Positions 3,022 through 52,635 of a DNA stretch of 64,000 nucleotides are shown here, in pieces; the first letter of the stretch is position 1, and every line of letters begins with the position of its first letter. Below the pieces are notes generated by a model. The model did no database searches and was not told the DNA's origin. It saw nothing but the letters and a program-made list of their open reading frames with translations. The DNA is from Candidatus Methanophagaceae archaeon (lineage in GTDB: Archaea > Halobacteriota > Syntropharchaeia > Alkanophagales > Methanospirareceae), in the NCBI GenBank assembly GCA_003194435.1, contig PQXC01000009.1, forward strand, positions 1-64,000. Reading direction: 5' to 3'. The translations under genes were made by a program, and so were the position numbers.

Positions 3022-3330
3022 ATGGCAGAAGAAGTTTCATTAGAGGAATACAAAAAGGCATATAGGGAAGTAGTGTCGGAGGAGGAGAAAAGAGACTTTT
3101 TAGTTCATCTGGTAGTGTACGTGCTGGTTAACGCTATGTTGATAGCTATTAACTTCATATATTCTCCCGAGGCTATCTGGTTCTTTTATCCACTCATAGG
3201 TTGGGGAATAGGTATATCAATACACTATCTATCCGGTGTTCGCTGGATACAAAAAGAGCTTGAGGAGAAGGAAGCTAAAGCGGAATATAAGGCGAGGGAA
3301 GCTAAGGGCTTAAATCTCCAAAGCACGTAA
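3022..3330 (+). CDS. Small 2TM-domain membrane protein
   Basis: A 102-aa protein with an acidic N-terminal helix, two transmembrane segments (roughly residues 28-46 and 53-72) and a charged C-terminal helix rich in E and K. The pattern FLVHLVVYVLVNAMLI, then WFFYPLIGWGIGISIHYL, is that of the 2TM domain family, which often accompanies histidine kinases or stands alone. No function is assigned to solitary members. It has the clearest Shine-Dalgarno sequence in this part of the window. The last codons (LNLQST) and the bases after them recur at 4066-4096, upstream of the second STT3-like copy, showing that the downstream tandem duplication took in the end of this gene. Confidence 0.75.
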   Translation: MAEEVSLEEYKKAYREVVSEEEKRDFLVHLVVYVLVNAMLIAINFIYSPEAIWFFYPLIGWGIGISIHYLSGVRWIQKELEEKEAKAEYKAREAKGLNLQST

Positions 3331-3346
3331 ATTGAGAATAGAAAAA

Positions 3347-4000
3347 ATGAAGCGAAAAATCGCCATCGGTATTGCGGCTGTTGCTGTAGCGATAATGCCA
3401 ATGGCATTAACATGGATGTGGTTGGATTTCTGTGACATGCAGTCTTTGAAATGGGAAATCCAGGACGAAAAATTGTATGAGGGCTTTTCATGGCTGTCCA
3501 ATAACACGAAAGAAGGTGAAACGGTATTAGCATGGTGGGACTATGCGGATGGAATCGAGAAGATAGGGCGTAGGAAAGTGGTGATAAGAGAAGCTTCGAG
3601 GAACATCAAAGAAACAATCGCCGGCAGACAGAAATATCCCTGGAGCTGGATTGAATATGAATTGTGGTATCCCTATGAATCTGAAGATAAGGTCAGGGAC
3701 GTTGCCAACTTCTTTATTGCCGAAAATTCCAATGAGTCCATGAGCATAGCGAGAAAGTACGGAGCTAATTATGTGCTTGTGATCTATCCAGATGATATAT
3801 GGAAATTCCCTGCGATAGTATTGGCTTCTGGAAACGAGCCCGGAGATTACATCACCGGAAATTTAACCATCGAGAGTATAGAAAGAAGAGAAGTTGTGAA
3901 GAAAGAAACAGTTGGAATAAAAATGATTTACGGCGATAACGTTGAAGGATTTGAGAAAGTGTTCGATAACAGGAAAATGAGAATCTACAAGTTAAAATAA
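3347..4000 (+). CDS. Membrane-anchored STT3/AglB C-terminal-domain-like protein, copy 1
   Basis: About 217 residues: one N-terminal transmembrane segment (residues 4-25), then a globular, presumably extracytoplasmic domain. Residues 48-70 read FSWLSNNT...VLAWWDYADGI, very like the WWDYG acceptor-recognition motif and its lead-in in the C-terminal domain of oligosaccharyltransferase STT3/AglB. The later stretch ANYVLVIYPDDIWKFPAIV also recalls that family. The multi-spanning catalytic half is absent, so it cannot be a complete transferase; it may be an accessory or decoy domain. I chose ATG 3347 over the track's TTG 3332 because only the ATG context is conserved in copy 2. It sits 16 bases after the 2TM gene, probably in one operon. 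Confidence 0.7.
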   Translation: MKRKIAIGIAAVAVAIMPMALTWMWLDFCDMQSLKWEIQDEKLYEGFSWLSNNTKEGETVLAWWDYADGIEKIGRRKVVIREASRNIKETIAGRQKYPWSWIEYELWYPYESEDKVRDVANFFIAENSNESMSIARKYGANYVLVIYPDDIWKFPAIVLASGNEPGDYITGNLTIESIERREVVKKETVGIKMIYGDNVEGFEKVFDNRKMRIYKLK

Positions 4001-4102
4001 AAAAGGCGAAAAGGCAAGCACACAAAGGGATGCCCCGGAATTTCAAGTGTGGCATAAGTGGAGCTTAAATCTCCAAAGCACGTAAATTGAGAATAGGGAA
4101 AA

Positions 4103-4762
4103 ATGAAACGAAAAATCGTCATCGGTATTGCGGCTGTTGCTGTAGCGATAGTAGCAATGGCATTAATAGGGATGTGGTTGGATTTCTGCAATTTGGAGGC
4201 TGTAAAGTGGCATATTGGAGGACCAAAGGGCGAAGAAGGCTATGAATGGCTGACTAATAACACCGAAGGTAATGCAACCGTTCTGGCATGGTGGGACTAT
4301 GCAGACGGCATACAAGCGATCAGTCACAGGAAAGTAGTAATAAAAGAAGCTTCTGAGAATATTAAAGAGACTATTGCTCCTTATAATTCTCCTGGGCGAC
4401 CATGGAGGAAAATTGAATATGAGTTATGGTATCCTTTTGAGTCAGAGGATAAGGTCAGGGACGTTGCCAACTTCTTTATTGCCGAAAATTCCAATGAGTC
4501 CATAAGAATAGCGAGAAACTACGGAGCTAATTATGTGCTTGTGATCTATCCAGATGATATATGGAAATTCCCTGCGATAGTATTGGCTTCCGGGAACGAG
4601 CCCGACGATTACATCACCGGAAATTTCACCATCGAGAGTATAGAAAGAAGAGAAGTTGTGAAGAAAGAAACAGTTGGAATAAAAATGATTTACGGCGACA
4701 ATGTTGAAGGATTTGAGAAAGTGTTCGATAACAGGAAAATGAGAATCTACAAGTTAAAATAA
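4103..4762 (+). CDS. Membrane-anchored STT3/AglB C-terminal-domain-like protein, copy 2
   Basis: This 219-aa paralogue of the preceding gene has the same layout: N-terminal membrane anchor, NNTEGNATVLAWWDYADGI near residue 65, and an almost identical last 115 residues. The central part (about residues 28-110) has diverged in both protein and synonymous codons, while both flanks are nearly identical at DNA level. This mosaic is best explained by an old duplication followed by gene conversion of the ends. The sequence before its ATG carries a fossil of the 2TM gene's last codons. A hairpin-plus-T-tract terminator follows at 4831-4870. Its function is as uncertain as that of copy 1. Confidence 0.7.
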   Translation: MKRKIVIGIAAVAVAIVAMALIGMWLDFCNLEAVKWHIGGPKGEEGYEWLTNNTEGNATVLAWWDYADGIQAISHRKVVIKEASENIKETIAPYNSPGRPWRKIEYELWYPFESEDKVRDVANFFIAENSNESIRIARNYGANYVLVIYPDDIWKFPAIVLASGNEPDDYITGNFTIESIERREVVKKETVGIKMIYGDNVEGFEKVFDNRKMRIYKLK

Positions 4763-14867: not shown

Positions 14868-15629
14868 ATGGTCAAGAGCAACCTGTATGCTATATGTGCA
14901 GTTTATCTTATTCTAATCACTTCGGCGGAGTTATTAACAAATTACAATCAAAAACTGGGCATTGTCTTTCATGTCGGCATCATGTTCCTCCTGTTTATAT
15001 GTGCATCCCTGGAATACAGCAGAGTCGTCTCTCAATTCCTGATATCCCTCACTCTTGCACCCCTTATCCGGATACTCAGCTTATCTATGCCGATTGTACA
15101 ATTCAGCCGTATGTTCTGGTTTATCCTTATCTCCATACCCGTGTTCATCGCGGTATTCACATGTATATGGTTACAGGGTGTCCATCCTGCGAGTCTGGGG
15201 CTTCACATATCCACTTCCCATCTATCGCTTGAAGCTGGCGTTATACTCCTTGGTCTACCATTTGGATTAATAGAATATCAGATTTTGAAGCCCAGTCCAC
15301 TTGCACTGAACTTGCGAATCTCTGATATCATTGTGGCATCATTGATATTCATCATCTGCACGGGTTTCTTAGAGGAGATAGTATTCAGGGGATTGATTCA
15401 GTTCAATACAATGCGGGTGATGGGCAGATGGCAGGGTATTCTCTTCATCTCGGCCATCTTTGGCGTCCTGCACGCGGGGAATCTCACCCCGTTTGACTGC
15501 TTGCTCGCATTCTCTGCTGGCTTTGTATTCTCATTCGTACGGGAGAAGACAGGTTCTTTATATGGTATAAGCCTCTCACACGGGCTCATCAATATCATAT
15601 TATTCATGGTGGCACCTTCCTATTTCTGA
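14868..15629 (+). CDS. CPBP family intramembrane glutamic protease
   Basis: A polytopic membrane protein of about 254 residues with seven or eight transmembrane segments. It carries the CPBP/Abi (CAAX-processing) motifs: EEIVFRG with the catalytic EE-x3-R, a histidine in FGVLHAG, and the final LSHGLINIILF. Members cleave membrane peptides or act in prenyl-protein processing and bacteriocin immunity. ATG 14868 begins directly at the first membrane helix and has GAGG upstream. ATG 14820 and the track's 14697 would add a basic, unconserved lead. It is convergent with the EpsI-like gene, overlapping by 26 bases, and may have no link to the sorting operon. Confidence 0.85.
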   Translation: MVKSNLYAICAVYLILITSAELLTNYNQKLGIVFHVGIMFLLFICASLEYSRVVSQFLISLTLAPLIRILSLSMPIVQFSRMFWFILISIPVFIAVFTCIWLQGVHPASLGLHISTSHLSLEAGVILLGLPFGLIEYQILKPSPLALNLRISDIIVASLIFIICTGFLEEIVFRGLIQFNTMRVMGRWQGILFISAIFGVLHAGNLTPFDCLLAFSAGFVFSFVREKTGSLYGISLSHGLINIILFMVAPSYF

Positions 15630-16497
15630 GCTTCGATTTCAATAGACCGTTATGTATGCTGGGATAGAAAATGACCAGGATAGGCAGTAGCAGAATGAGT
15701 ACAATAGCCACTTTACCGGAGCAAGAAGAGAAGAGAGTGAAAAAGATAGGCGATTCCTCCTTCTGGAGCTCAAACATGCAGGGTATAGTCTCGCCCATAA
15801 ACTCCCTGGTCATGTTCAGAGTGCCATTGTATGAGCCTTGAATCGGTGCCAACGCTGATACCCGCACCATTGTGATCTTATTTGATAACGGCTTCTCCTT
15901 CACATAGAAATATAGCACTACCCTTCGTTCCGTTACGTCACCGCGTGGCGATTCCTTCGTGACGATGAGTTTCTTTGCTGTTATCATCCTGCTGGATGCT
16001 ATACGAGTTTTATTCACGGGTTTTGTAAAGAGCGGCTCTTCCACCCAGCTCCTGTTACGTACCGGTATCTGCACCCTGCCCGTTTCCTCTATCTTATAAC
16101 CCAGTGCAGGATAGCATACAATCGGAGGATGGAAACTTGAGCGATTATTTGACTGCACAATGAGGAAGAATACAGGCTGATAATATCTTGGATTCGAATA
16201 CGCGCGCATGAGCAACACATCGGCATGCAGTACCTTAGCAAGTCTCGCTGCCGCACTGTACTCTTTGTCCCGCCAGTTGCCTATCTTACGCGGGAATGCA
16301 CGCATATGCTCGTTGCTGCCGAAATCCAGCTTCGCTCTCACAAACGTCTCACCTGATGCACCATGCGAGAGCTCTGCACCTATCGTGGTGACCGATTTAG
16401 CAAGAATCATGGATGGCGTTGAGAAGAGTATTATAATTACAAAAGTGAGCAGTAGTACACCTATAACCCTGCAGTATTCTTCGCTGAATCTCCTCAT
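15604..16497 (-). CDS. EpsI-like exosortase-associated protein
   Basis: A 297-aa protein with an N-terminal membrane anchor (residues 12-33), an extracytoplasmic domain and a second transmembrane segment near 262-282. The domain contains FPRKIGNWR, ADVLLMRAYSNPRYYQPVFF and FHPPIVCYPALGYKIEE, corresponding to the EpsI/DUF3485 signature in which an H-P...C-Y-P-x-x-G core is conserved. EpsI proteins accompany exosortases in exopolysaccharide and PEP-CTERM loci; their biochemical role is unsettled. The gene starts 9 bases after the archaeosortase stop, so it is the last gene of the operon 19214-15604. Confidence 0.8.
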   Translation of the reverse strand: MRRFSEEYCRVIGVLLLTFVIIILFSTPSMILAKSVTTIGAELSHGASGETFVRAKLDFGSNEHMRAFPRKIGNWRDKEYSAAARLAKVLHADVLLMRAYSNPRYYQPVFFLIVQSNNRSSFHPPIVCYPALGYKIEETGRVQIPVRNRSWVEEPLFTKPVNKTRIASSRMITAKKLIVTKESPRGDVTERRVVLYFYVKEKPLSNKITMVRVSALAPIQGSYNGTLNMTREFMGETIPCMFELQKEESPIFFTLFSSCSGKVAIVLILLLPILVIFYPSIHNGLLKSKLRNRKVPP

Positions 16498-16506
16498 CCT
16501 ATCCCC

Positions 16507-17331
16507 TTAACCCCTTATTCTACATCCAATTACTATACTGAAGAGGATTAAGAATAAAAAAGCGATGATGAAGAGAAGAGGGCTGAAGAGCGTGTGGAAG
16601 AAACCGGTTGCGGTTGCTTCATCATAACTGTTCGCGATCAAGATTAGAAATACGATTCTGAGGATGTTTGCAAAGATGGCAAAGAGGATAGCAGCGAAGA
16701 CGAGCGCGACCTTTTTATACCAGTTGCATTTGAGTAGATAGACAAAGAGTACAGATAATGCCAGCAGAGCAATCACCGAATTCATACCACTGCAAGGCAG
16801 ACCCACAACCAGGGTGCTATTTCTCAGGTGTATCTCTGCTCCAATTCGCTCAACCGGGACGCCAAGCTGCGTGATTATCAACGTCGAATACGTGACTGCG
16901 ATGGTCTGCATCTGCAAAGCGATCTTATCAAGCAATACGCCAGGAGGAGGGATAGCGAAGATGAGAAACACGACAGGGAAGATAAGAGAACGCATAACTG
17001 CTCTGCCGTACAGATACAGGATTAGCCCGCTTATAGTGAATAAGAACGATAGAGCGCCTAAAGAGGGTATATCTTTGAAGTATCCGAGAACGAGAAGAGC
17101 GAGCCCAAGTGAGAGTATGCCGAATCCGGGTTTATAAGGCTGCTCCTCTATCACCCCTGAGCTGCTGAGATTCTTCCACGCGATGAGCGCAGCAATAACA
17201 GGGATTAAGAACCCATGAGAGTAAAAAGGGTTGTTCATCCAGTTATTTACCAGCCATGTCATGATATTGAGATATAAAATACCAATACCGATACCGATGG
17301 CTAAGAGAAGAAGTAGAAGCCTGTAGTTCAT
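16507..17331 (-). CDS. Archaeosortase/exosortase family transpeptidase
   Basis: A 274-aa protein with eight or more transmembrane segments. The catalytic triad positions of the family are visible: Cys180 in VVGLPCSGMNSV, Arg225 in ANILRIVFL and His246 in GFFHTLFSP. Such enzymes cleave short C-terminal tripartite signals on exported proteins and are thought to attach them to a lipid. The gene lies 14 bases after the papain-like protease whose C-terminus ends in such a signal, and before the EpsI-like gene. The adjacency identifies the protease as its likely dedicated substrate. The subtype is not assigned; it is probably distinct from the ArtA enzyme expected for the PGF-CTERM protein at 42686. 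Confidence 0.92.
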   Translation of the reverse strand: MNYRLLLLLLAIGIGIGILYLNIMTWLVNNWMNNPFYSHGFLIPVIAALIAWKNLSSSGVIEEQPYKPGFGILSLGLALLVLGYFKDIPSLGALSFLFTISGLILYLYGRAVMRSLIFPVVFLIFAIPPPGVLLDKIALQMQTIAVTYSTLIITQLGVPVERIGAEIHLRNSTLVVGLPCSGMNSVIALLALSVLFVYLLKCNWYKKVALVFAAILFAIFANILRIVFLILIANSYDEATATGFFHTLFSPLLFIIAFLFLILFSIVIGCRIRG

Positions 17332-17345
17332 TACTGATCATCTCT

Positions 17346-19214
17346 TCAGTATTGATGTTGATGTTGATATAGATAGCCCATAAACATAAGCAGCAGCAAA
17401 CCAATGGAGAGCAGCAAAAACGAGGGGAGTTCAGGGATGCATGGCACCGCGGTATCCTCTGTCTCGGTGTAATCGTAACAGCATGTACAGCCTTCATCAG
17501 CCGGGTAATCAATATGGCTGTCACCATCGTTATCGGTACCATCACAGCATGCCGGGCAATCATTGAAGCACCAATCATGCCCCTGTGAAGAGCTATGCCA
17601 TGATTTACCGCCTGTAGCACCACCATTACCATTTATACACTCGTAACAGGATACATTTGTTGCTATTATGCTACCTGTGCAGTTCGTTGAGCTGTAGCAG
17701 TTACCGAGGCACTCTTCTGGACTCACCCTTGCCCTTATCCCGATATCGGTGAGTGAGCCACCAATGCTGAGCTTCGTGAATGTTTTTCCATTACCACTCA
17801 CATAGCTCTCCCCTGAACCCTCTGCATGCCAGTCACTGTAATATTCATCGCCGGACGATAGGTAATCCATCGGTATCGGATAGTTATATCCAGAGGCGGT
17901 GAATTTGATCTGGACCACAAAATCGTCACCCTTAACCACAGTTATTGGTGTGTTCAAGCTGACCGAATAGTAGCCCACCTCTTCTGTTGTCCCATTCTGG
18001 TATCCAAGTTGATTGGAGAATGTGTACGGTGAACTATCACTTATATTATCGAATATCCTGATTTCATACTGCATATTATCATCAACAGCCCAGAAATCAA
18101 CCGATCGCAATTGACCACTCTGAGCAGGTATGAAACGCACTGCACCCCACGCCGTGTTCGTCCCCATACCACAACAGTAGCCCATCCATCCATATTCATC
18201 ATGGTAATACAACTGAATACCGCCATCGTTACAGGATGTGATAGCACTGGTGTAGTCCCCGATATTCGCAGCGCCATAGGCGACCCACGCACAGCCGGGA
18301 TAAGGTCCGTGAGCACCCCAGTCCGTCCCCCAGCTGTTCTTTATCAACCACGCACCGCTACCTCTTGAATAGGGCAAGGAATCATTCCACCCTATTATCT
18401 GTATCGCATGGTTTGGCTCATCAGCACCCCAGTACTCATAGACCCCGCTGTCATAAGCATAAAATCCCGGATCGCCCGCATACATGGTTGAGTACACCGG
18501 TCCATAATTCAATATTGCTGCTTTGATCTTTTCTATTTCCGTCTCTCCTCTGCTACCAGTGATGACCCTCCAGTTATCTACATTCTTGATGATGGAACAG
18601 TTGTAGCAGGCTGTTCCGTGTGCCACATAGGGGTGACAGGATTCATTACCCACACCCTTCTTTGTGAGATAGTTTGTACTTATGCGTGAATTCCCACCAT
18701 TACAAAACCGATTCCAGATGTTGCAGTCTCCAGCTTCCTGTTCTGAGAAGTCACTCTGAGTGGAGTCCGCGATTGCTACGTCCGATTCAATATCGGCAAT
18801 AGCGGCGAAAAGCCAGCAGCTACCACATGTGTACTGGTTCTTTACCGGTGTGACATATCCAAGTGCCATAGCGTCATAGGCGGATGGCATTCCGGTGGTC
18901 AGTCGCATTGTACTTCTTTGAACTGCACCTGCATCTATGGTACGGAAGGAACGGAAACTGACATTTGGTGGTAAAGTGCCTACAGGTGGCTTCGGCGGTC
19001 GGTATCCCATGAGTTGCGATATCTCTTCTGGTGTTAGTCCAGTTATCCAGTTCTTTGCGACTTTGTAGTGAAAACCCGAACTATTAATTCTCTGCTGTAA
19101 CTTTTGTAATTGTGACTCTTCGATTGGTGTTTTCTCTGAAGTTGAAGTTACCGTTGTAATCACCGCTGAGAATAAAAACAGCAGCAGTAATACAGTTGTT
19201 AATATTTTCTTCAT
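17346..19214 (-). CDS. Exported papain-family (C1) cysteine protease with C-terminal sorting signal
   Basis: A 622-aa protein. Residues 1-26 form a signal peptide, and 45-75 resemble an inhibitory propeptide (NWITGLTPEEISQLMGY). The C1 peptidase domain has Gln127 and catalytic Cys133 (NQYTCGSCW), PNHAIQIIGW for the histidine and WLIKNSWGTDWG for the asparagine. A beta-rich module (about 350-500) follows, then a Cys-rich part with CDGTDNDGDSHIDYPADEGC, a MopE-like Asp-rich calcium motif. The end, CIPELPSFLLLSIGLLLLMF plus a short polar tail, is a PEP/PEF-CTERM-like tripartite signal. First gene of the operon with the archaeosortase and EpsI-like genes. Likely a surface-anchored protease. Confidence 0.92.
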   Translation of the reverse strand: MKKILTTVLLLLFLFSAVITTVTSTSEKTPIEESQLQKLQQRINSSGFHYKVAKNWITGLTPEEISQLMGYRPPKPPVGTLPPNVSFRSFRTIDAGAVQRSTMRLTTGMPSAYDAMALGYVTPVKNQYTCGSCWLFAAIADIESDVAIADSTQSDFSEQEAGDCNIWNRFCNGGNSRISTNYLTKKGVGNESCHPYVAHGTACYNCSIIKNVDNWRVITGSRGETEIEKIKAAILNYGPVYSTMYAGDPGFYAYDSGVYEYWGADEPNHAIQIIGWNDSLPYSRGSGAWLIKNSWGTDWGAHGPYPGCAWVAYGAANIGDYTSAITSCNDGGIQLYYHDEYGWMGYCCGMGTNTAWGAVRFIPAQSGQLRSVDFWAVDDNMQYEIRIFDNISDSSPYTFSNQLGYQNGTTEEVGYYSVSLNTPITVVKGDDFVVQIKFTASGYNYPIPMDYLSSGDEYYSDWHAEGSGESYVSGNGKTFTKLSIGGSLTDIGIRARVSPEECLGNCYSSTNCTGSIIATNVSCYECINGNGGATGGKSWHSSSQGHDWCFNDCPACCDGTDNDGDSHIDYPADEGCTCCYDYTETEDTAVPCIPELPSFLLLSIGLLLLMFMGYLYQHQHQY

Positions 19215-42685: not shown

Positions 42686-45124
42686 TTACTTCCTTCTCCT
42701 CAGTACGAGGTATGCAATTGCGAGCAAGCCTGCAATGGTGAATACCGAAGCACCGAAACCAGGTGTTGGCTTTGGTGTGGGCGTAGGTGTTGCTGGTGCT
42801 GGTGTAGGTGTAGCCGGTGCTGGTGTAGGCGTTTCTGGTGCTGCAGTTGGCGCTGGTGTAGGTGTTACTCCAGTTGGTAGCGGTGTGGGCGCAGGTGTTG
42901 CACCTGTTGCTAATATCTCCACTGTTACTGTATCTGTATTGCCATCGCCATCATCTGCTTCAAGCGTATATGTTCCTGGCACAGCATCCGTAGTGTCAAT
43001 CGTAGCTTCGAACACTCCTTCTTCTGGTGTAGGCCATTCTACTTCCGCTATTCCTACAGGTAAGTCCATAGGTCCAGCGAAAGTGGAAATCGTTATTAGC
43101 GTATCAGGTTCGCGGTTCGTTGTTCCACTTACGTTCAATGGTTCGCCAATTGTCACTGCTTCTACCGGATTAAACTGAACATATGCAGACTCTACTTTAA
43201 AGGACAAAGGTATGAGCAGATCGTCACTTCCCGCCCTGTCAATAGTACGGTCCTGGATTATTGATAATATCTGTGCTTGATCTTTACCTCTAAGGTCGCC
43301 AAACATTTCGGCTTCGATTTCTCCTGCTCCAACACTTTCCCCCGAAGTTTTTCTTAAATCGCCGTACTCACCATCACGTCCGGGCGAAAGAACCAGTGCT
43401 AACCACATACCGGTATCCAGACCCTCAGTCATTGTTATATCCTCGTCGAATTCATCGTTTTTGTCCACTGACGATGCTATTATCTTAAGTCCGTTTTCTA
43501 TACTTGGTTCAGCCGCACCTCTAGCATATCCTTTGGGTCCTATAAGGATTATATCCACATTGTCCACACCGGTTGCTGTACCCTCTATCGTATAGTCGTC
43601 ACCTTCAGCAATTACTTTCCTCGGCTGTGTCGCATTGAGTGCACCACTGACTAACCTTATACTCGTCTTACCGTCTTCATCTTTACCCTCATAGGTCTTT
43701 ACTTTATCCCAGTTATCCTTCGTCACAAATGGTGGATCAATGAAAACATCAATTGTGTATGAGCCTGTGGTCAACCCTTCTGTCTTCCATTTCACCTCGA
43801 ATTCGTTGTTCTCGTCTACTGCCTTCTTAAATACTATATTCGCATCTTCTATAACTATGTAAACTTTATCACCTGCGCTTATAGCTCCTTTTATCTCTAC
43901 TTCTTCGCCGATCACCGCAGTTGATGGTATATCAAAAGTTACCTTTGCCTCTGTTACTTCTACGTCTATATCATCATCGTCCTTACTATCCACTATCTCA
44001 CCGTCTTTTACAAAATCTATTTCTTCGGTAAGTTCCTTGTCTTTCGTCCTAGGCGTATCATACACATGTATTGTATATGTCCTCTCATCTGCATGTTCTG
44101 TACTGATCTTGACGTCCGCGATACCATCACTACCTGTCTTTATCCATGCTGCCAGATTCGGGGCGTCTTTTGAAATCACTTCCTCTCCTGACAGTTTCTT
44201 AACATCGCCCGCCATTTTTATCTCCGGCGGTTCGTCTGGATCCACGCCCGTAACTGTCAGGTAATACCAGGTTGTTGGGTTACCACTGACCTTTAGAACG
44301 ATGTCCTCACCTTTACCCACTTCTTCTTCCACTGCCTCTATCGAAAGTTCCTCACTGCGTATCCTGAATTCATACTCCGGTGACGAGACATCCAGCAGAT
44401 TACAACTTTCTTTATCTGTCTTTATTATAACCCTGTACTCGCCGGTGTCCATGTCCTCTAAGTCTATTGCATCAGAATATGGTGGAGCTTCGGTAGTCCA
44501 GTTAGGAGTCAAGTCAGTAACAAAGAATGTTGTGGAAATTGCAGGAATATCGCTGAGACTTACACCGTCTATGGATAGAACTTCTGTATCGTCCGGGTCA
44601 TAAACTTTGATATCAACTTTCGCGTCTGGAATCTTCTCCCCGCCAAAGTTCGGCTCTATTTTGAATACTATCTCGGAGCTGACTGGAACACTTTTTCCCA
44701 CCACCGAATCCTGCTTTTTATTATTTAATATTACATCACCCGTTATCTCTGGTTCGGCAATGTATATGAATTTACCATCATATTTGGCACCGCCACCAAC
44801 GCACTTATATTTACCTTCTGTAACTGACGGAACAGTCCATCCTTTAGGATTTACTGTTATTGGAGACACACCTTCGGTAGCTGTATCTGGGACACCTTCA
44901 AGCTTGAGGTCAATAAGGGCATCATTTGCATCACCATACACGCCGTTATTATTTGTATCGAACGTCAGATTCTGTTCACCAATGTATACAGTATCATTGG
45001 CTTTTATCTCGTTAGCTGCTTGTCTTCCCACCGCCACAGGGATTATTGCTGCAAATACTAACGTCAGTGTAATCGCCACTATTGCAAGCCCTGTTATCGC
45101 TTTTACTCTATTCTTAGTATCCAT
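42686..45124 (-). CDS. S-layer-type surface protein with PGF-CTERM signal
   Basis: An 812-aa exported protein. The signal peptide spans residues 8-33, followed by NDTVYIGEQNLTFDTNNNGVYGDANDA, similar to the opening domain of methanogen surface proteins (DUF3821-like). Several beta-rich Ig-like modules with DxNxE repeats follow (KNDEFDED; ENNEFEVKW). Residues about 735-785 are a Pro/Thr linker (TPAPATPTP repeats), then PGFGASVFTIAGLLAIAYLVLRRRK, a canonical PGF-CTERM signal cut by archaeosortase A and lipid-anchored. AGGAGGTGAG before the ATG and TATA-like elements predict strong expression. Very acidic, as usual for S-layers. Confidence 0.9.
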   Translation of the reverse strand: MDTKNRVKAITGLAIVAITLTLVFAAIIPVAVGRQAANEIKANDTVYIGEQNLTFDTNNNGVYGDANDALIDLKLEGVPDTATEGVSPITVNPKGWTVPSVTEGKYKCVGGGAKYDGKFIYIAEPEITGDVILNNKKQDSVVGKSVPVSSEIVFKIEPNFGGEKIPDAKVDIKVYDPDDTEVLSIDGVSLSDIPAISTTFFVTDLTPNWTTEAPPYSDAIDLEDMDTGEYRVIIKTDKESCNLLDVSSPEYEFRIRSEELSIEAVEEEVGKGEDIVLKVSGNPTTWYYLTVTGVDPDEPPEIKMAGDVKKLSGEEVISKDAPNLAAWIKTGSDGIADVKISTEHADERTYTIHVYDTPRTKDKELTEEIDFVKDGEIVDSKDDDDIDVEVTEAKVTFDIPSTAVIGEEVEIKGAISAGDKVYIVIEDANIVFKKAVDENNEFEVKWKTEGLTTGSYTIDVFIDPPFVTKDNWDKVKTYEGKDEDGKTSIRLVSGALNATQPRKVIAEGDDYTIEGTATGVDNVDIILIGPKGYARGAAEPSIENGLKIIASSVDKNDEFDEDITMTEGLDTGMWLALVLSPGRDGEYGDLRKTSGESVGAGEIEAEMFGDLRGKDQAQILSIIQDRTIDRAGSDDLLIPLSFKVESAYVQFNPVEAVTIGEPLNVSGTTNREPDTLITISTFAGPMDLPVGIAEVEWPTPEEGVFEATIDTTDAVPGTYTLEADDGDGNTDTVTVEILATGATPAPTPLPTGVTPTPAPTAAPETPTPAPATPTPAPATPTPTPKPTPGFGASVFTIAGLLAIAYLVLRRRK

Positions 45125-45541: not shown

Positions 45542-46150
45542 ATGCCTGTAAGTCTCATCGCCATCACCGGTACGCCGGGAACAGGCAAGACTTCGGTATG
45601 CCGCGCACTTGAGCCTATAAGCGAATATAACATCATCAATTTGGATGCGGTCATCAAGAGCAAAGGGTTCTACACCGGTATAGACGATGATAGGGGATGC
45701 CTTATAGCCGACCTCACCAGATTAAGGGATTACATAAAGAGTGAGGTAGAGAATAGCGAGAAGCAGGTGGTGATTGAAAGTCATCTTGCGCATCTACTTC
45801 AACCTGATGTAGCCATCGTGCTCCGTACCAATCCTGCGGTACTCGCCTCGCGATTGATGCAAAAAGGCTTCACGATGCGGAAGATAGAGGAGAATGTGGA
45901 AGCGGAGATGCTGGATGTTATTCTTATAGAAGCAGTGGATTTATGCAAGGTTGTATACGAAGTGGACACCACTACCAGTGCTATATCGGAGACCGCATCC
46001 ACAATACGCGAGATTATAGATGCAGAGAGAGGCATAGACGCGAGTCGAAAGAAATCACTACGCCTCAAATTCCGCCCGGGCTCTATAAGCAGGAACTGGC
46101 TAACATTAACGTACCCGGAGCCTGTCCGCAATCGCTCTTATATCATTTGA
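45542..46150 (+). CDS. AK6/Fap7-type adenylate kinase
   Basis: A 202-aa P-loop kinase. ITGTPGTGKTSVCRAL is the Walker A, VVIESHLAHLL the acceptor region, and RTNPAVLASRLMQKGFTMRKIEENVEAE the lid typical of AK6/Fap7, an adenylate kinase/ATPase that assists maturation of the small ribosomal subunit (with uS11) in archaea and eukaryotes. The C-terminal extension (from residue 165) is not conserved. It overlaps the convergent 46106 gene by 45 bases. Confidence 0.92.
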   Translation: MPVSLIAITGTPGTGKTSVCRALEPISEYNIINLDAVIKSKGFYTGIDDDRGCLIADLTRLRDYIKSEVENSEKQVVIESHLAHLLQPDVAIVLRTNPAVLASRLMQKGFTMRKIEENVEAEMLDVILIEAVDLCKVVYEVDTTTSAISETASTIREIIDAERGIDASRKKSLRLKFRPGSISRNWLTLTYPEPVRNRSYII

Positions 46151-47200
46151 TATCTCTGTCAGTGCTGCTCTTATCTTCAATAACTCACGCGCCGCTCCTC
46201 GCTTATCTTCATCTTCACTGCGCGCAAATCGCCCTGCAATTCTACTTATCGAGCTCGAATTTGCGTCTATCTGCCCTGAAACATCTTCCAGATCCGATGT
46301 CGCCGCTTCTATATCCACCCCCCTGCCGCCACCGCGCGTGGCATATACATACACAGATGCAGCACCGAGTATCAATCCCAGTACCACTGCCAGAATGAGA
46401 TAGAGAGCTAATGGTGGCGGCGCCATCTCGGCTGACAACTCCCTGTAATGCCGCGACAGTAGCATTGCCCAGCCCGGGTGCCCCTCTTCGTATAACCGCC
46501 TTATATCCTCTTCCAGACCTGTTTTTCCTATATCAGACTCTGCAATTGTCAAATTAGCCTCTATTGAGCGATTCGCAGCCAGTATCTTCTTATTCGTTGC
46601 ATAGAACCGCATCACAGGCGACAATTTCTGGATATATGTTATGTTACCACCCTCCATCCTTCCTACGCTTAATCGGACTTCTACCTCCTTCTTACTTAGC
46701 CCATCGAGGTCATAAGCTTCGAATCCGGGCTCTTTTACCTTCTTCAATGGCTTGGGAACTTCTGCTGAGAGGATAATCGGTGACGGAAATATCCCTTCAT
46801 GCGCCTCCTTGCCTTCCCATACAATCCAGTTCCCGGAATGTGATATGTTATCACCGAACTTCCATTCGGGGTCAGACATATCTGTGTAGAGTTCCAATAC
46901 GTAATTCTCAAGAATCGGACTCCCGGTCTTACTCACATATATATGGAATTCAAGCCTCTCACCTTCCAGCTGGTTGCTACCTATCACCTCTGTATAATTA
47001 TGCTCTACGCCCGTGTCCAGATTGCGTACGTATGAACGGTCCACATTCAACTTCAGGACCTCCAGAGCCGCAGCACCCGGTACTAAATATAGAACTAAAA
47101 GTGTCAACAGTATCAGGAATGCACCAGCGGAGATACAGATACGGGGTTTGAGTTTATGTCTTCTCTCCATCTTCTGCTTCATCCTTATCTCCTTCATCAT
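46106..47200 (-). CDS. Exported membrane protein of the tubulin-like cluster, C-terminal coiled coil
   Basis: A 364-aa protein, family not recognised. A basic N-terminus and signal/anchor (about residues 22-45) lead into an extracellular beta-rich domain (50-260) with KLNVDRSYVRN, GNWIVWEGKEAHEG and PSPIILSAEVPKPLKK. A transmembrane segment (265-290, LALYLILAVVLGLILGAASVYVYA) follows, then a cytoplasmic helix-rich tail (DLEDVSGQIDANSSSISRIAGR). The tail could contact the tubulin-like protein, whose stop lies 5 bases upstream. Last gene of the leftward unit 52635-46106. Confidence 0.75.
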   Translation of the reverse strand: MMKEIRMKQKMERRHKLKPRICISAGAFLILLTLLVLYLVPGAAALEVLKLNVDRSYVRNLDTGVEHNYTEVIGSNQLEGERLEFHIYVSKTGSPILENYVLELYTDMSDPEWKFGDNISHSGNWIVWEGKEAHEGIFPSPIILSAEVPKPLKKVKEPGFEAYDLDGLSKKEVEVRLSVGRMEGGNITYIQKLSPVMRFYATNKKILAANRSIEANLTIAESDIGKTGLEEDIRRLYEEGHPGWAMLLSRHYRELSAEMAPPPLALYLILAVVLGLILGAASVYVYATRGGGRGVDIEAATSDLEDVSGQIDANSSSISRIAGRFARSEDEDKRGAARELLKIRAALTEISNDIRAIADRLRVR

Positions 47201-47205
47201 CTATT

Positions 47206-49932
47206 TTATCCCCCCTCTCCCTTTCCCTCTTCCTTTATATCAAGCGACAATTCTGGTAGTTCCATCTGTTCCTGCTCTTGCTCCTGCTCCTTACCTTCGC
47301 CTTGACCCTGACCCTGTTCTAATTCTAACTCAGATTCGCCAGCTTCTATCATGCTCTTCAACTCACGCAATGAGGATGACATCTCCGCCAGCGGTTCCCC
47401 GATAGCTCTTATCCCTCTCGCTGCTTTCATACTATCCTCCCTTATTCTTGAGAGCTCACTTTCCGCCTTTGTTATATGCCTTATCACCGCGGAGGTAGTC
47501 TCCTTAGAGGGTATCGCGCCGAGGAATTCCGTCGCCTTCTCCACCACTACCTTTATATCGCTACTGAAACTGTTTGATATCTCCTCTATCCTGTCAAGCA
47601 ATATCTCAATATCCCGTATCGCATCATCTACCATTCGCAGCATCTTCACTGCCTTGTCGCCTGCAGGCGGTTTGATACCTTTCAATCGCGCAGTAAGGTC
47701 ATCAACCTGGCTCTTTAACTGCCCGAATCCCCTGCTCGCTTCTCTTGTCCACCGTTTCAGCTTCTCCATGCTCTTGCCCGCTTTCTCCAGTCCATGCACC
47801 AGCATCGTCAGGCTCGCTATTGAGTAGTTGTCCGGGATTCCCAGATTCTTTATCCCCTCTGCAACGTCCAGCCCGGTAAGTAAATCATCAAACATCTTCA
47901 AACACTGTGCAAGCACCACAGGCGTATTATTCCAGATCGCTTCCGGCTCGATTAGCTCATAATTCCTCCAGAAATTCGTCACTGCATCCCTGTTCTTCTC
48001 TTCCGCGCCCGGAGTATATCCTATATTGGTAATAATGGCGAACGGCTTGCTTGTGCCATAGAATAAAGAGTGATGCCTCTGTAATCTCGCGAAGTCACTC
48101 TCCTTATACGCCTGCTCCAGCCATTCCAGCTCTCGCATCCGCGGTGGCAAACCCGGTCCCGGCGCCCATGGCTGTAACCCAATCATCAGAGTGTATATAG
48201 CGAAACTATGTGCTCGCGCGGGCGTATCCAGCTTCAGTACATCTGCATCCTTCGCAAATCGCTCGGTCACCATACTCTTGAATGCACCGCCTCCCAGCCG
48301 CGCATCATCAAAATTGTCCGCACGCGTACTCAGTACCGCGATGAAATGCCCGAGCTTCTCCTCCTCTTTCATTATGTTACCCTGTGCATCCACCTCCAGG
48401 AATCCATAATCATGCAGTAGCTCGATATACCGCGATGCCAGCGTGCTTTCAATCGAATGCCGGTAGTTCAACATCGGATTGAATATGATATCCCCCTCGT
48501 TTATCGGCGCATGAGTCCAGCGGAAATACTCGTCCTCACGACCCAGGAGTTCCATAATCTCCTTGAATGACATCTTCTTCATGTCTTCCCTGCGCTTCTT
48601 CAGGCTCTTCACCTCTTCCTCCGAGAGCTCTATCTGATGATAACTCCTTGTATTCTGCGGTGTCGTTATCTCCCGCAATAGCCTGTTCTTCAATGCATCC
48701 AGCCGTTCTAATCTCCGTTCCATCTGCCTCTTCTCCTCCTCCGCATCGCTCACCCGGACCTCGAGGTCAAAGACCGCTTCCTTCAACTCACTCAATTTCT
48801 TACGTGCTCGCTCCAGTTTCGTCTTACCTTCCTCCACCGCCGCGAGATTCACATGCGTGAACAGTCCTACCCCCTCCTTTGATTCGTACTCCTCAATTAC
48901 ACGCTGAGCTTCCCTTATACGTGCTTCATATCGCTCCAGTTCACCCCGCTGCGATTCTATCTTGCCCTGTATCTCCGAGATTCGCGCTTCTATCTCCACC
49001 AGCTTCTCTCTCACCACCGGTATCTCGTCCTCCACCTCATAATACAGGAACAGTTTCTCTGTTGGGAATACGCACTCGTAATAGCCCAGGGTATCAAATC
49101 GGTTCTCATAGCCCCTCGCTCTGTTCTGCAGGTCGTTGAGGTCCAGCCACTTCCCCCGCATCTCCACCTTGCCCCCTGGTAAGAACCCGAGATCGAGCAG
49201 GAACCTGGGTATCGCCCTCTCCAGTTCCTCATCCCTGTTCTGACCCTGAAGGTCTCTACCCAGGAGGAAGAAGAGTTTAAATGGATTTGAGTAATTCTTA
49301 TCCTCGATTATTATCTCCTCGCTGTGCGACATGAGGAAATGGAGCTCTTTCAGTGTTCCAAGCGCATTTGCAGTTGGTAACGCTGATTCCTTACTCGAGG
49401 GCAGTATCCCTATCCCGAAGATCACGGGCTCCGAGCCGAACTGCTTCGATATCCAATCCCGTACATCTATTGCAACATCCAGGACCATGCTCGAGCCAGT
49501 GCCACCTCCAAAAGCACAGACCATGATGATGAAGAAGTCCTTACCACCCGTCCTGTTCCTTAGTTCCGATGCTGCCGCACCTATCGCACTGAATATCCTC
49601 TCACGGTGCACATTATACATCGCCCTGCCATATATACGATGTTGCCCGCAGCCCGCACCGGCTGCCGATAGATACGGGTCTGGTAACCACTGGTTTACAT
49701 TCTTCATCAATATCGTGTCCGGTCTACTGAGAATTATCTTCCGCCGCTCCTCTATCTCAGTACATGCGTTCGCTGATGCCTGGTCGGTATCAATAATCAG
49801 AAACTCCTCGTTCTTCGGCACTTTACCCGTACTACGCTTCAGCATTCGCAATATGTTATTCACAATGAAACTCCCCTGCCCTCCTATCCCTATTACAATC
49901 CGGTTTACTGTATCCTCACGCAACTCCACCAT
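47206..49932 (-). CDS. Large tubulin/FtsZ-superfamily GTPase (Tubulin_2-like)
   Basis: A 908-aa protein. The N-terminal 250 residues carry the GTP-binding elements of the superfamily: T1 IVIGIGGQGSFIVNNIL (12-28), a FLIIDTD strand (44-50), T3-like SAAGAGCGQHRIYGRAMY (89-106), and the signature T4 loop FGGGTGSSMV (141-150). A long coiled coil (about 310-435) interrupts the fold, then a domain with FRWTHAPINEGDIIFNPMLNYR, further helices (690-860), and a Gln/Glu-rich tail (QGQGQGEGKEQEQEQEQ). It resembles the Tubulin_2 and FtsZ-like families known from scattered bacteria and archaea and predicted to remodel membranes. It is flanked by membrane and coiled-coil partners in one operon. Confidence 0.85.
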   Translation of the reverse strand: MVELREDTVNRIVIGIGGQGSFIVNNILRMLKRSTGKVPKNEEFLIIDTDQASANACTEIEERRKIILSRPDTILMKNVNQWLPDPYLSAAGAGCGQHRIYGRAMYNVHRERIFSAIGAAASELRNRTGGKDFFIIMVCAFGGGTGSSMVLDVAIDVRDWISKQFGSEPVIFGIGILPSSKESALPTANALGTLKELHFLMSHSEEIIIEDKNYSNPFKLFFLLGRDLQGQNRDEELERAIPRFLLDLGFLPGGKVEMRGKWLDLNDLQNRARGYENRFDTLGYYECVFPTEKLFLYYEVEDEIPVVREKLVEIEARISEIQGKIESQRGELERYEARIREAQRVIEEYESKEGVGLFTHVNLAAVEEGKTKLERARKKLSELKEAVFDLEVRVSDAEEEKRQMERRLERLDALKNRLLREITTPQNTRSYHQIELSEEEVKSLKKRREDMKKMSFKEIMELLGREDEYFRWTHAPINEGDIIFNPMLNYRHSIESTLASRYIELLHDYGFLEVDAQGNIMKEEEKLGHFIAVLSTRADNFDDARLGGGAFKSMVTERFAKDADVLKLDTPARAHSFAIYTLMIGLQPWAPGPGLPPRMRELEWLEQAYKESDFARLQRHHSLFYGTSKPFAIITNIGYTPGAEEKNRDAVTNFWRNYELIEPEAIWNNTPVVLAQCLKMFDDLLTGLDVAEGIKNLGIPDNYSIASLTMLVHGLEKAGKSMEKLKRWTREASRGFGQLKSQVDDLTARLKGIKPPAGDKAVKMLRMVDDAIRDIEILLDRIEEISNSFSSDIKVVVEKATEFLGAIPSKETTSAVIRHITKAESELSRIREDSMKAARGIRAIGEPLAEMSSSLRELKSMIEAGESELELEQGQGQGEGKEQEQEQEQMELPELSLDIKEEGKGEGG

Positions 49933-49940
49933 CCTATCCT

Positions 49941-50393
49941 CTATACCTCCTTCTCCCTCGCTTCATAATCTGATATCCTTCTCTTTATGTCGCTCATCTC
50001 CTCATCGAAGTGTTCTATCTCCACCCCACTGCCTCTTATCTCACTCTCCATCCTCGTAACTGCACTATCTATGCTCCTTGCGGTAGCTACCAGCTTCTTC
50101 GCTTCCTTCTCACCCCTTAACCATATCACAATGCCCATCAATCCCAATATAATGCCCATCGCCACTATCGCATATATAACAACAGAGCGGGCAGATTCTG
50201 ATAGAGAAGACAGAAGCTTCTCCCGGTATTCATTCAATGCGAAAGCTAAAGCGGCTAATATAACGCCCGTGATGGGCATGAGAAGCAGCATCTTGTCCAC
50301 TTTCATTCGCGTCAACATCAACACTACTTCCACAGCCAGCACAGACGCAACGACGAGAAAAGCTATGCTCTGGAGTTCCATTTCCATATACAT
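49941..50393 (-). CDS. Small membrane protein with coiled coil, tubulin-like cluster
   Basis: A 150-aa protein, family not recognised. Three hydrophobic segments (about residues 8-25, 33-53 and 72-92) and a cytoplasmic helical tail (LRGEKEAKKLVATARSIDSAVTRMESEIRG...) that should form a coiled coil. Several ATGs at the N-terminus leave the exact start open. It lies 8 bases upstream of the tubulin-like gene and could tether it to the membrane. Confidence 0.7.
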   Translation of the reverse strand: MYMEMELQSIAFLVVASVLAVEVVLMLTRMKVDKMLLLMPITGVILAALAFALNEYREKLLSSLSESARSVVIYAIVAMGIILGLMGIVIWLRGEKEAKKLVATARSIDSAVTRMESEIRGSGVEIEHFDEEMSDIKRRISDYEAREKEV

Positions 50394-50456
50394 TATTTAA
50401 TTTTTATCTCAATAAAAAATGTTTCCCTCTTTCTCTTTCTGTAACATAATCAATCT

Positions 50457-51746
50457 TCAATTTTGGCTTCGAGCTGAATCTGATCTTATATACTTTAGCC
50501 GTTCAGAATCATAGCTCAACCTCGAAAGAGCATCAGAAGCGAGAAGTCTGTATCTGCGTACGAAAACGTCAGTGCTCTCTTCTTTCGCTATCGCTCTCAA
50601 CTCCTCTATCTCGCTTAGCTTATCCCTCGACCAGTATTCCACAGGGTATGCATCTGTTCCCGGGTTCTCAGCCTGTATCTCTGTCTCCAGCTCGAATATC
50701 TGCTTATAAAGCTTCTCCAGCAACGCTACTGTTAGTTCCATCAGTGACTTACCATAGCCCAATAACTTTGGCATCTGTGACGGCAACATGCATCCCTCTA
50801 TCCTATCCTTCAGCTCCTTCACCTCAGCATCATCCGATATCTCTGCCGCTACTCCTGCCAGTACGAGTACGTCCGCTTTGTAACGTTCAAATTCATCACT
50901 CAACATCGCACTCAACTGTACAACCACATTCTTCAATAATTCCACCGTGTTATCGTAATTACCGTGCTCTATGCTATGCTCTGCGAGCTTTATATCTGTC
51001 CTGACCCTGGCAGTATCTGCATTCACTCGCTCACGCGCTATCGCTTCTAACTCCATCGCACTCTTCACGCATATCCACAGTGATTCTTCTATGAGGGAGA
51101 CCACTTCATTCATGAACATAGCGAGCTCAAGCAGTTCCATCTCTATATCCATACCCATATCCTCCAGTTTCTTCTCCATCTGCTCTATTTGTGGACTTAT
51201 ATCCAGACCCACTTTCCTGAGCTCTCTCAGTGCTATTAAATACTCACTGCATCTATCCTTCAATCGCGAGCAGAGCACCATTTCGTGCCGCTCGGTTATC
51301 TCATGGAGCATCTTATCCACCCACTCAACATCAGCAAAGACCACTCTTCTCAGTTGCGCACTGTTCATCCTCAACTGCCCGGTTATCTTACATCCGAGTT
51401 CTGATAAGCCGTCTTTCACCTTCTCCAGATCTGTTCTGAACTCCTTTGTACTTATCCGATACTTCTCTTCGAAATCACGCAATATTCGCATCTCCTCCAT
51501 ATATCGGTTTGCAATTGCCCGGATGTCCCGCTCCATTACCTGTTCCCTCACACTCCTCTTCCTTACTGCGACAAGGTATCGCACAAGGAACGAGACACCG
51601 ATCATAGCAGGGATGAATATCAGGATGATGGTGATTGCGAGATCAGAGCCGGTATTGAATAATATGAAGATAGCAATAGCAATCAAAGCTAAGAATGCCA
51701 GTGGTACCAGTATACTTACAGTTATACTATATCGCTTCATGTGCAA
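50457..51746 (-). CDS. Membrane-anchored coiled-coil protein, tubulin-like cluster
   Basis: A 429-aa protein, family not recognised. Two transmembrane segments (residues 9-28 and 33-55) form an N-terminal hairpin; the rest is almost all helix with predicted coiled coils (RAIANRYMEEMRILRDFEEKYR; LELAMFMNEVVSLIEES; ELETEIQAENPG). The architecture resembles membrane-bound spectrin-like or EzrA-like regulators of FtsZ in outline only. The start overlaps the end of the pseudo-tubulin gene by 20 bases, indicating coupled expression. Confidence 0.72.
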   Translation of the reverse strand: MHMKRYSITVSILVPLAFLALIAIAIFILFNTGSDLAITIILIFIPAMIGVSFLVRYLVAVRKRSVREQVMERDIRAIANRYMEEMRILRDFEEKYRISTKEFRTDLEKVKDGLSELGCKITGQLRMNSAQLRRVVFADVEWVDKMLHEITERHEMVLCSRLKDRCSEYLIALRELRKVGLDISPQIEQMEKKLEDMGMDIEMELLELAMFMNEVVSLIEESLWICVKSAMELEAIARERVNADTARVRTDIKLAEHSIEHGNYDNTVELLKNVVVQLSAMLSDEFERYKADVLVLAGVAAEISDDAEVKELKDRIEGCMLPSQMPKLLGYGKSLMELTVALLEKLYKQIFELETEIQAENPGTDAYPVEYWSRDKLSEIEELRAIAKEESTDVFVRRYRLLASDALSRLSYDSERLKYIRSDSARSQN

Positions 51747-52635
51747 GCCCCCTTAGCTCTCGCAGTCGCTTCAACTGCTCGAACCTGTAAACGAAGAGAT
51801 TTGTTATCGCTGCTATATTCCGCTTTGTGGTACAGACTGCCAGATAGCATTCCTTTGTATACATAAGCATGAACTCCTCCACCAGTTCCTTATCCACTCG
51901 CTCGCCCCTGACATAATACTCAGGAACACGCAGGAATGTAATACCCCGTTCGCTGCTTAGCGGGGCTTCTGCGATGCTTAACTTCTCCATGGATACCCGA
52001 ATGAGGGTTCGGAGGTCGAGCGGTTTATGCCTCAGAAATGGCAGGATATAGCCAGCCAGTCCCTTCGTGAGCTCAGAAGCCCTTGATAGTGCTGCATAGC
52101 CCGGCTCGTCACTGAACGAGATAATGCTTAATAGTCTGTCTATATTCATTGCCGCTGTTTTATCTCTCACTCCCGCCAGGATGTCCACGATACACGATGC
52201 TATATATCGGTTATAACGTGGATAATACCGTTCGAAGTTTGGAAGATGCGCTATCCTCTGGTTATCAACAATTATGAAGCTATTGATATATTCTTTCAGC
52301 TTCTCCAGTGTATAGAACGCATTTATTAAGTTCTCGCTCTTCTGGCGCCGCATCGCAGGCAGAACACCAACAAACAGCGTTTTTATACCACACTCTGATA
52401 GCATTGCCGCTGCCCGGGATACCTCATCACCGTCATCGAGTTCTGAGATCACAAAAGCGAAATCAGCTCCCTTTTCTCGACTTATTCTCGACTTATTCCA
52501 CTCTTTATCACTCCTTAACCTGATTACAATCGGTTTATCCCGCCTTATCTCTTTGTACTCCAGCACTGAGTTGAGTATTGCAGTTCCTGAAGACCCTATT
52601 CCTATGAAGAGGTATGCCATACCGTTTAATACCAT
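51727..52635 (-). CDS. Divergent, shortened tubulin/FtsZ-like protein with degenerate T4 loop
   Basis: A 302-aa protein. T1-like FIGIGSSGTAILNSVL (10-25) opens the fold. GADFAFVISELDDGDEVSRAAAMLSE (56-81) aligns with the FtsZ segment that normally reads ADMVFITAGMGGGTGTGA, but the Gly-rich phosphate loop is replaced by ELDDGDEV. Then KTLFVGVLPAMRRQKSENLINAFYTLEKL and INSFIIVDNQRI match the following FtsZ strands and helix. About 40 residues between T1 and T4 are missing compared with FtsZ. I infer an inactive or differently acting partner of the 908-aa tubulin-like protein. The start could be 52635 or 52620 (MAYLF). First gene of the leftward operon. Confidence 0.65.
   Translation of the reverse strand: MVLNGMAYLFIGIGSSGTAILNSVLEYKEIRRDKPIVIRLRSDKEWNKSRISREKGADFAFVISELDDGDEVSRAAAMLSECGIKTLFVGVLPAMRRQKSENLINAFYTLEKLKEYINSFIIVDNQRIAHLPNFERYYPRYNRYIASCIVDILAGVRDKTAAMNIDRLLSIISFSDEPGYAALSRASELTKGLAGYILPFLRHKPLDLRTLIRVSMEKLSIAEAPLSSERGITFLRVPEYYVRGERVDKELVEEFMLMYTKECYLAVCTTKRNIAAITNLFVYRFEQLKRLRELRGLAHEAI

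Follow-up and report, generated by a model that had tools for sequence, protein, structure and literature searches.

Tandem membrane-anchored CC domains of the oligosaccharyltransferase type, without a catalytic half, in an ANME-1 archaeon

Two tandem genes and their surroundings

The window analysed here, a stretch of 64,000 nucleotides of contig PQXC01000009.1 (assembly GCA_003194435.1) from a Candidatus Methanophagaceae archaeon, a methane oxidiser of the ANME-1 lineage, carries two tandem genes, P0001 and P0002 (Table 1), whose products are 81% identical, and no further copies were found in the 1.8-Mb genome. Both proteins start with MKRK, continue with a single hydrophobic segment and then have a domain with NNT...VLAWWDYADGI; both open reading frames lie where a first-pass annotation of the window had reported two such proteins (3347-4762). 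Since MKRK precedes its anchor, P0001 is predicted to be N-in/C-out by the positive-inside rule. The anchor of P0002 stands just ahead of the CC domain, a position which, judging from the model and the alignment, would be that of the last membrane helix of oligosaccharyltransferases (OSTs). The domain had been called soluble, but it is tethered by this helix. The neighbours of the two genes encode MarC-type, 2TM and RNase H proteins and the wider surroundings consist of housekeeping genes, while the order of a 2TM gene followed by a CC gene is also found in the related genome G004 and in contig C222 of G006.

Table 1. Positions of the two genes, their leaders and their motifs in the window
Feature	Position	Strand	Remarks
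2TM-domain protein (PF13239)	3022-3330	+	16 nt upstream of P0001
Leader of P0001	3308-3346	+	includes 3' end of the 2TM gene
P0001, one membrane helix and STT3/AglB central-core (CC) domain	3347-4000	+	217 aa
P0001 membrane anchor, residues about 5-25	3359-3421	+	hydropathy
P0001 WWDYADG, residues 63-69	3533-3553	+	ungapped alignment to WWDYG motif
P0001 ASRNI, residues 83-87	3593-3607	+	family hallmark (S84)
P0001 DK motif DIWKFPAI, residues 150-157	3794-3817	+	fits DXXKXXX(M/I)
Leader of P0002	4063-4102	+	near-copy of 3308-3346 with remnant of 2TM gene 3' end
P0002, membrane helix and CC domain	4103-4762	+	219 aa; tandem paralog of P0001
P0002 membrane anchor, residues about 5-25	4115-4177	+	hydropathy
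P0002 WWDYADG, residues 63-69	4289-4309	+	ungapped alignment to WWDYG motif
P0002 ASENI, residues 83-87	4349-4363	+	family hallmark (S84)
P0002 DK motif DIWKFPAI, residues 152-159	4556-4579	+	fits DXXKXXX(M/I)

The leader of P0002 repeats that of P0001, the 3' end of the upstream 2TM gene included, which places the start of the duplicated unit within that gene. The two copies are 66% identical in nucleotides over codons 21-110 (window 3407-3676 against 4163-4432), as against 92-96% on both flanks, and the two types of middle segment recur in relatives, the P0001 type in G004 and the P0002 type in G006. In their 3' parts, the window copies are as similar to each other as to the gene of G004. 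The pattern resembles that of gene conversion on either side of a pocket segment of which two types are maintained. Judged from codon comparisons, the CC genes are under purifying selection: among 15 pairs drawn from the window and its relatives, NG86 dN/dS was 0.12-0.27 for 14, and the closest pair, in which changes are few, gave 0.46. A clear copy was found in 12 of 58 genomes of the class, some of them cut by contig ends or truncated, and interrupted, truncated or remnant copies occur in G006, G012, G015 and G047; so patchy and decaying a family is evidently dispensable.

The CC unit and its acceptor pocket

Searches with a single window protein matched TIGR04154 (archaeo_STT3) at 4e-7 and the C-terminal domain of Archaeoglobus AglB (PDB 3vgp) at 5e-5, and human STT3A was matched by the family profile at 9e-10; Pfam PF22627 was reached only below threshold (15 bits, cut-off 27). 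Comparison of profiles by hhalign against seven AglB proteins gave a probability of 99 and an E-value of 5e-18 over 102 columns with 29% identity. An AlphaFold2 model, built from an alignment of 13 rows (mean pLDDT 84, pTM 0.76), matched only STT3, AglB, PglB and DPY19, a related enzyme of the GT-C type, in Foldseek at E <0.001, the best E-value against STT3/AglB/PglB being 4e-9, and AfAglB-S2 (3vu0) had a TM-score of 0.74 by target length. On these profile and model matches, the STT3/AglB CC identity of the window proteins can be called firm. The first-pass reading of them as free-standing STT3/AglB C-terminal-like domains on one anchor, lacking the multi-span half, is thus borne out by hydropathy as well as by the profile and fold matches, and the predicted fold is not an unrelated one.

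The C-terminal part of OSTs has been named the CC unit, and the C-terminal domains of AfAglB-S1 and AfAglB-S2 consist of this unit alone (PMC3703281); the window proteins therefore amount to a CC unit plus, by position, the preceding OST membrane helix. They share with AfAglB-S2 (3VU0) and AfAglB-S1 (3VGP) the fold, the WWD core, the DK motif, the size of the CC unit and a membrane helix directly before it. However, these and other OSTs have a multi-span, DXD-bearing GT-C half, whereas the window proteins have one hydrophobic segment each. A catalytic OST subunit is marked by a multi-span GT-C half that carries two DXD motifs and a TIXE/SVSE loop, and both DXD and TIXE belong to the half that is missing; moreover, an LLO-binding motif (DGGK or DNXTZNX[T/S]) was not recognisable in the window proteins. 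Lacking the catalytic half and the LLO motif, they are not an OST.

The segment WWDYADGI aligns with WWDYGNWI, with W-W-D-Y kept, G replaced by A, and DG following. The near-WWDYG motif noted in the first pass is indeed present, but the proposed insertion of 'AD' can be ruled out, since every alignment is ungapped there and the change is a substitution of G by A. The +2 Ser/Thr pocket of the sequon is formed by WWD and the lysine of the DK motif (PMC3703281; PMC8342417), the latter being defined as DXXKXXX(M/I) (PMC3703281). In the window proteins, DIWKFPAI aligns with DDINKFLWM of STT3A, which is its DK motif, and lies on a helix (151-162) of the AlphaFold2 model; the motif is a contiguous DXXKXXX(I) here, whereas Archaeoglobus AglBs have a variant with an insertion. 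Among 26 free-standing relatives, W63, W64 and D65 belong to the most conserved positions (26, 26 and 25 of 26), D152 is kept in 22 and K155 in 20, T54 is invariant where present, and S84 is invariant in all 25 relatives having that region. Within the window's clade, most of the intact proteins retain WWD/WWDF together with a DK-type motif, while a relative in G010 has WWSH instead of WWDY and the proteins of G267 and G389 are without the DK motif. In GT-C proteins generally, the WWD/WWDF and DK-type residues vary. The residues of the Ser/Thr pocket are thus kept, and catalysis is absent along with the half that would bear it.

Around S84, the segment ASxxIxxT is present in every free-standing relative with this region and in no AglB compared. 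It would sit in the region of DNNTWNNT of eukaryotic STT3, a counterpart of the LLO motif (PMC8342417), where hhalign against AglB places about 40 extra, family-specific residues after the pocket. The ASxxIxxT insertion and the change of G to A in WWDYG set the window proteins apart from AfAglB-S2 and AfAglB-S1. The domain is thus a known one, and the architecture is one for which the literature searched, from which subscription papers were excluded, offered no description, whether of a free-standing CC domain or of the HTH-GWCP pair considered below. To our knowledge, OST domains have been known only as parts of a transferase. A conserved family that retains the sequon pocket but has dropped catalysis might provide a compact, naturally occurring module for acceptor binding, open to study in isolation.

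Relatives behind HTH genes and other free-standing forms

Similar anchored domains, which the first pass had proposed to look for in related genomes, are found within the class, and they also occur in Methanothrix. The nearest relatives beyond ANME-1 are these Methanothrix proteins and multi-span fusions in G026, G267 and G389; for instance, P0002 and the Methanothrix protein of locus L055 share 51% identity over residues 3-218, membrane anchor included. The clade that unites ANME-1, Methanothrix and the GWCP fusions is supported at 94/91. Outside ANME-1, the gene of this clade lies directly 3' of an HTH gene (148 aa) and has a GWCP leader at all nine loci, the two genes either overlapping slightly or lying no more than a few bases apart. 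In the phylum sample, 71 of 394 genomes have the HTH. Where sequence downstream of it was available, a GWCP protein follows in 33 of 35 distinct cases; nine of these 33 proteins have an STT3-CC head and the rest have other membrane parts. In Methanothrix and G026/G267/G389, the relatives belong to the GWCP proteins, bear an STT3-CC head and are encoded after an HTH gene, whereas the membrane domains of most GWCP proteins are of other kinds.

The HTH protein resembles the Tfx family (TIGR00721) in its DNA-binding part, although the match is sub-threshold (24 bits, cut-off 60), and it differs from that family in an invariant HxGxCxxCxxYxxC motif. Its structural model has a GerE/LuxR-like DNA-binding part (probability up to 0.99 for that part, with weak E-values), and a Pfam search of the HTH gave no functional call. 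The membrane part of one STT3-CC fusion (L098) matches DUF1673 below cut-off, and DUF1673/arCOG06827, with its 'MGWCP motif', has been listed as uncharacterised (PMC4158269). As a modular pair, a Tfx-like HTH followed by a GWCP membrane protein, whose C-terminal part varies greatly from case to case, occurs at L055:5429-6660, L062:260-2001, L097:345-1959 and L124-L148, and it resembles a system of trans-membrane regulation not characterised so far. In methanogens, the HTH gene, cytoplasmic leader, anchor and outer head are laid out as in a membrane sensor that works with a DNA-binding protein, a putative signal flow that is read from gene order, and these relatives suggest that a part of OST was reused as a membrane sensor. 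The HTH was found in none of 51 genomes of the ANME-1 family and in one of 58 in the class (G026), and the window copies have neither a GWCP leader nor an HTH gene upstream; a signalling role is therefore not supported inside the window. Of the regulator role raised in the first pass, then, a regulator origin is favoured by the nine loci outside ANME-1, but signalling by the window copies themselves is not. For the chaperone and antagonist roles raised with it, the comparisons yielded evidence in neither direction.

Other free-standing forms were also seen. Lipoprotein-anchored CC domains, some with canonical WWDYG, occur in ANME-1 and other archaea (L048:1489-2214, L049:1480-2205, L094:1300-2028, L095 and L096); those of L048, L094, L095 and L096 have no HTH alongside, and such lipoprotein forms cannot signal across the membrane alone. 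A protein of a Euryarchaeota MAG (L066:4972-6474) combines a HAAS domain, just below cut-off, with membrane helices and an STT3-CC-like domain. A single clade of all free-standing proteins was neither supported nor rejected (AU p 0.129), the lipoprotein and HAAS forms being placed uncertainly on long branches. WcaJ/EPS_sugtrans matches in three members are probably due to the membrane segment.

The gene for HaoB is encoded with hydroxylamine oxidoreductase in nitrifiers. The HaoB profile (TIGR04392) matches the WWD region of P0002 (residues 51-155) at 22.6 bits and E 7e-5, against a cut-off of 200, and it also matches L055, L059, L113 and L067, with a range across members of 18-25 bits, far below the curated cut-off. 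The Chlor_Arch_YYY profile matches the same region, likewise below cut-off. HaoB may hold a CC-like domain.

A possible receptor role and its alternatives

Computational support extends to the domain identity, the architecture, the conservation of motifs, the absence of the catalytic half, the selection on the genes and the operon link in relatives. The reading we prefer, while giving it somewhat less than an even chance, is that the window proteins are non-catalytic, membrane-tethered receptors for Ser/Thr-containing peptides, derived from a lineage of HTH-coupled membrane sensors. In this scheme, a CC unit on a single membrane helix would face the exterior of the cell. Since W63-W64-D65 and the DK motif (D-xx-K-xxx-I), the two halves of the +2 Ser/Thr pocket, are retained and ASxxIxxT lies in the region of the LLO motif, it would most likely bind peptide stretches that contain Ser/Thr, be they sequons or something analogous, but not glycosylate them. 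The proteins would descend from, or share a common ancestor with, membrane sensors that stand behind a Tfx-like HTH regulator and carry a cytoplasmic GWCP leader. Since leader and HTH are missing in the ANME-1 lineage, the tethered receptor would act there via another partner, for which the upstream 2TM protein is a candidate, or would modulate AglB. Ligand binding, signalling and the partner are what we infer here. A bolder extension, which must be rated rather doubtful, is that the acceptor-recognition core of OST serves as one of the swappable sensory heads of an archaeal Tfx-like HTH and GWCP system and reads free or unglycosylated sequons outside; in ANME-1, the head would have been retained with its anchor as a receptor that is no longer coupled. 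Through a pair such as that of the HTH-linked relatives, an archaeon might then be able to monitor its own N-glycosylation.

The pocket residues could also be kept for folding alone. If so, the fold may have been reused, either in a receptor for small molecules or surface ligands or as a structural module; the sub-threshold matches of HaoB and Chlor_Arch_YYY, which hint at CC-like domains in proteins without a known OST role, the loss of the DK motif in part of the family and the family-specific residues after the pocket would fit this, but WWD/WWDF and the DK-type motif are kept together in most intact clade members, and such reuse is rather unlikely. A complete AglB is encoded elsewhere in the same genome, and a tethered CC domain on the right side of the membrane, with its Ser/Thr pocket kept, might hold acceptor segments near AglB or steer its choice of sites, like a non-catalytic OST subunit or chaperone. 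This accessory role is unlikely, however: no link to aglB or glycan genes was noticed at the loci examined, AglB is widespread while the CC gene is in few genomes, and the methanogen forms are tied to the HTH gene instead.

Two tandem copies of a binder unable to transfer would, if abundant, sequester acceptor sequons or block AglB, but the window copies lie in housekeeping surroundings where no mobile-element, virus or defence genes were recognised, and an antagonist or decoy is very unlikely. A CC domain with its preceding membrane helix is also the C-terminal piece of an OST, which might complement a separately encoded GT-C half in trans; such a split enzyme is highly improbable given the complete AglB and the lack of a recognisable LLO motif, and its version with a neighbouring gene is ruled out, as no GT-C gene was found among the neighbours. 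Decayed copies in relatives might suggest a functionless relic of a truncated aglB. This is scarcely credible against the low dN/dS values, the conserved Methanothrix orthologs and a hallmark shared by the family and absent from AglB; that hallmark and an identity of only 28% over 100 residues between a window protein and its own AglB rule out recent truncation of the latter.

Other genes of the window were noted as well. A cluster on the minus strand (46106-52635) includes a 908-aa protein (47206-49932) whose N-terminus, on visual inspection, resembles tubulin/FtsZ and precedes a coiled coil; its neighbours are membrane and coiled-coil proteins, and NCBIfam gave no names in the cluster beyond coiled-coil matches. 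An exosortase (16507-17331, minus strand; 8TM_EpsH 2e-41, best XrtW 2e-51) is nearer to bacterial exosortases than to the NCBIfam archaeosortase models and is followed by an EpsI-like gene (15604-16497, minus strand); the large secreted protein adjoining it (17346-19214) looks like a papain-type protease. As well, an S-layer-glycoprotein-like protein with a PGF-CTERM-like tail is encoded at 42686-45124 on the minus strand.
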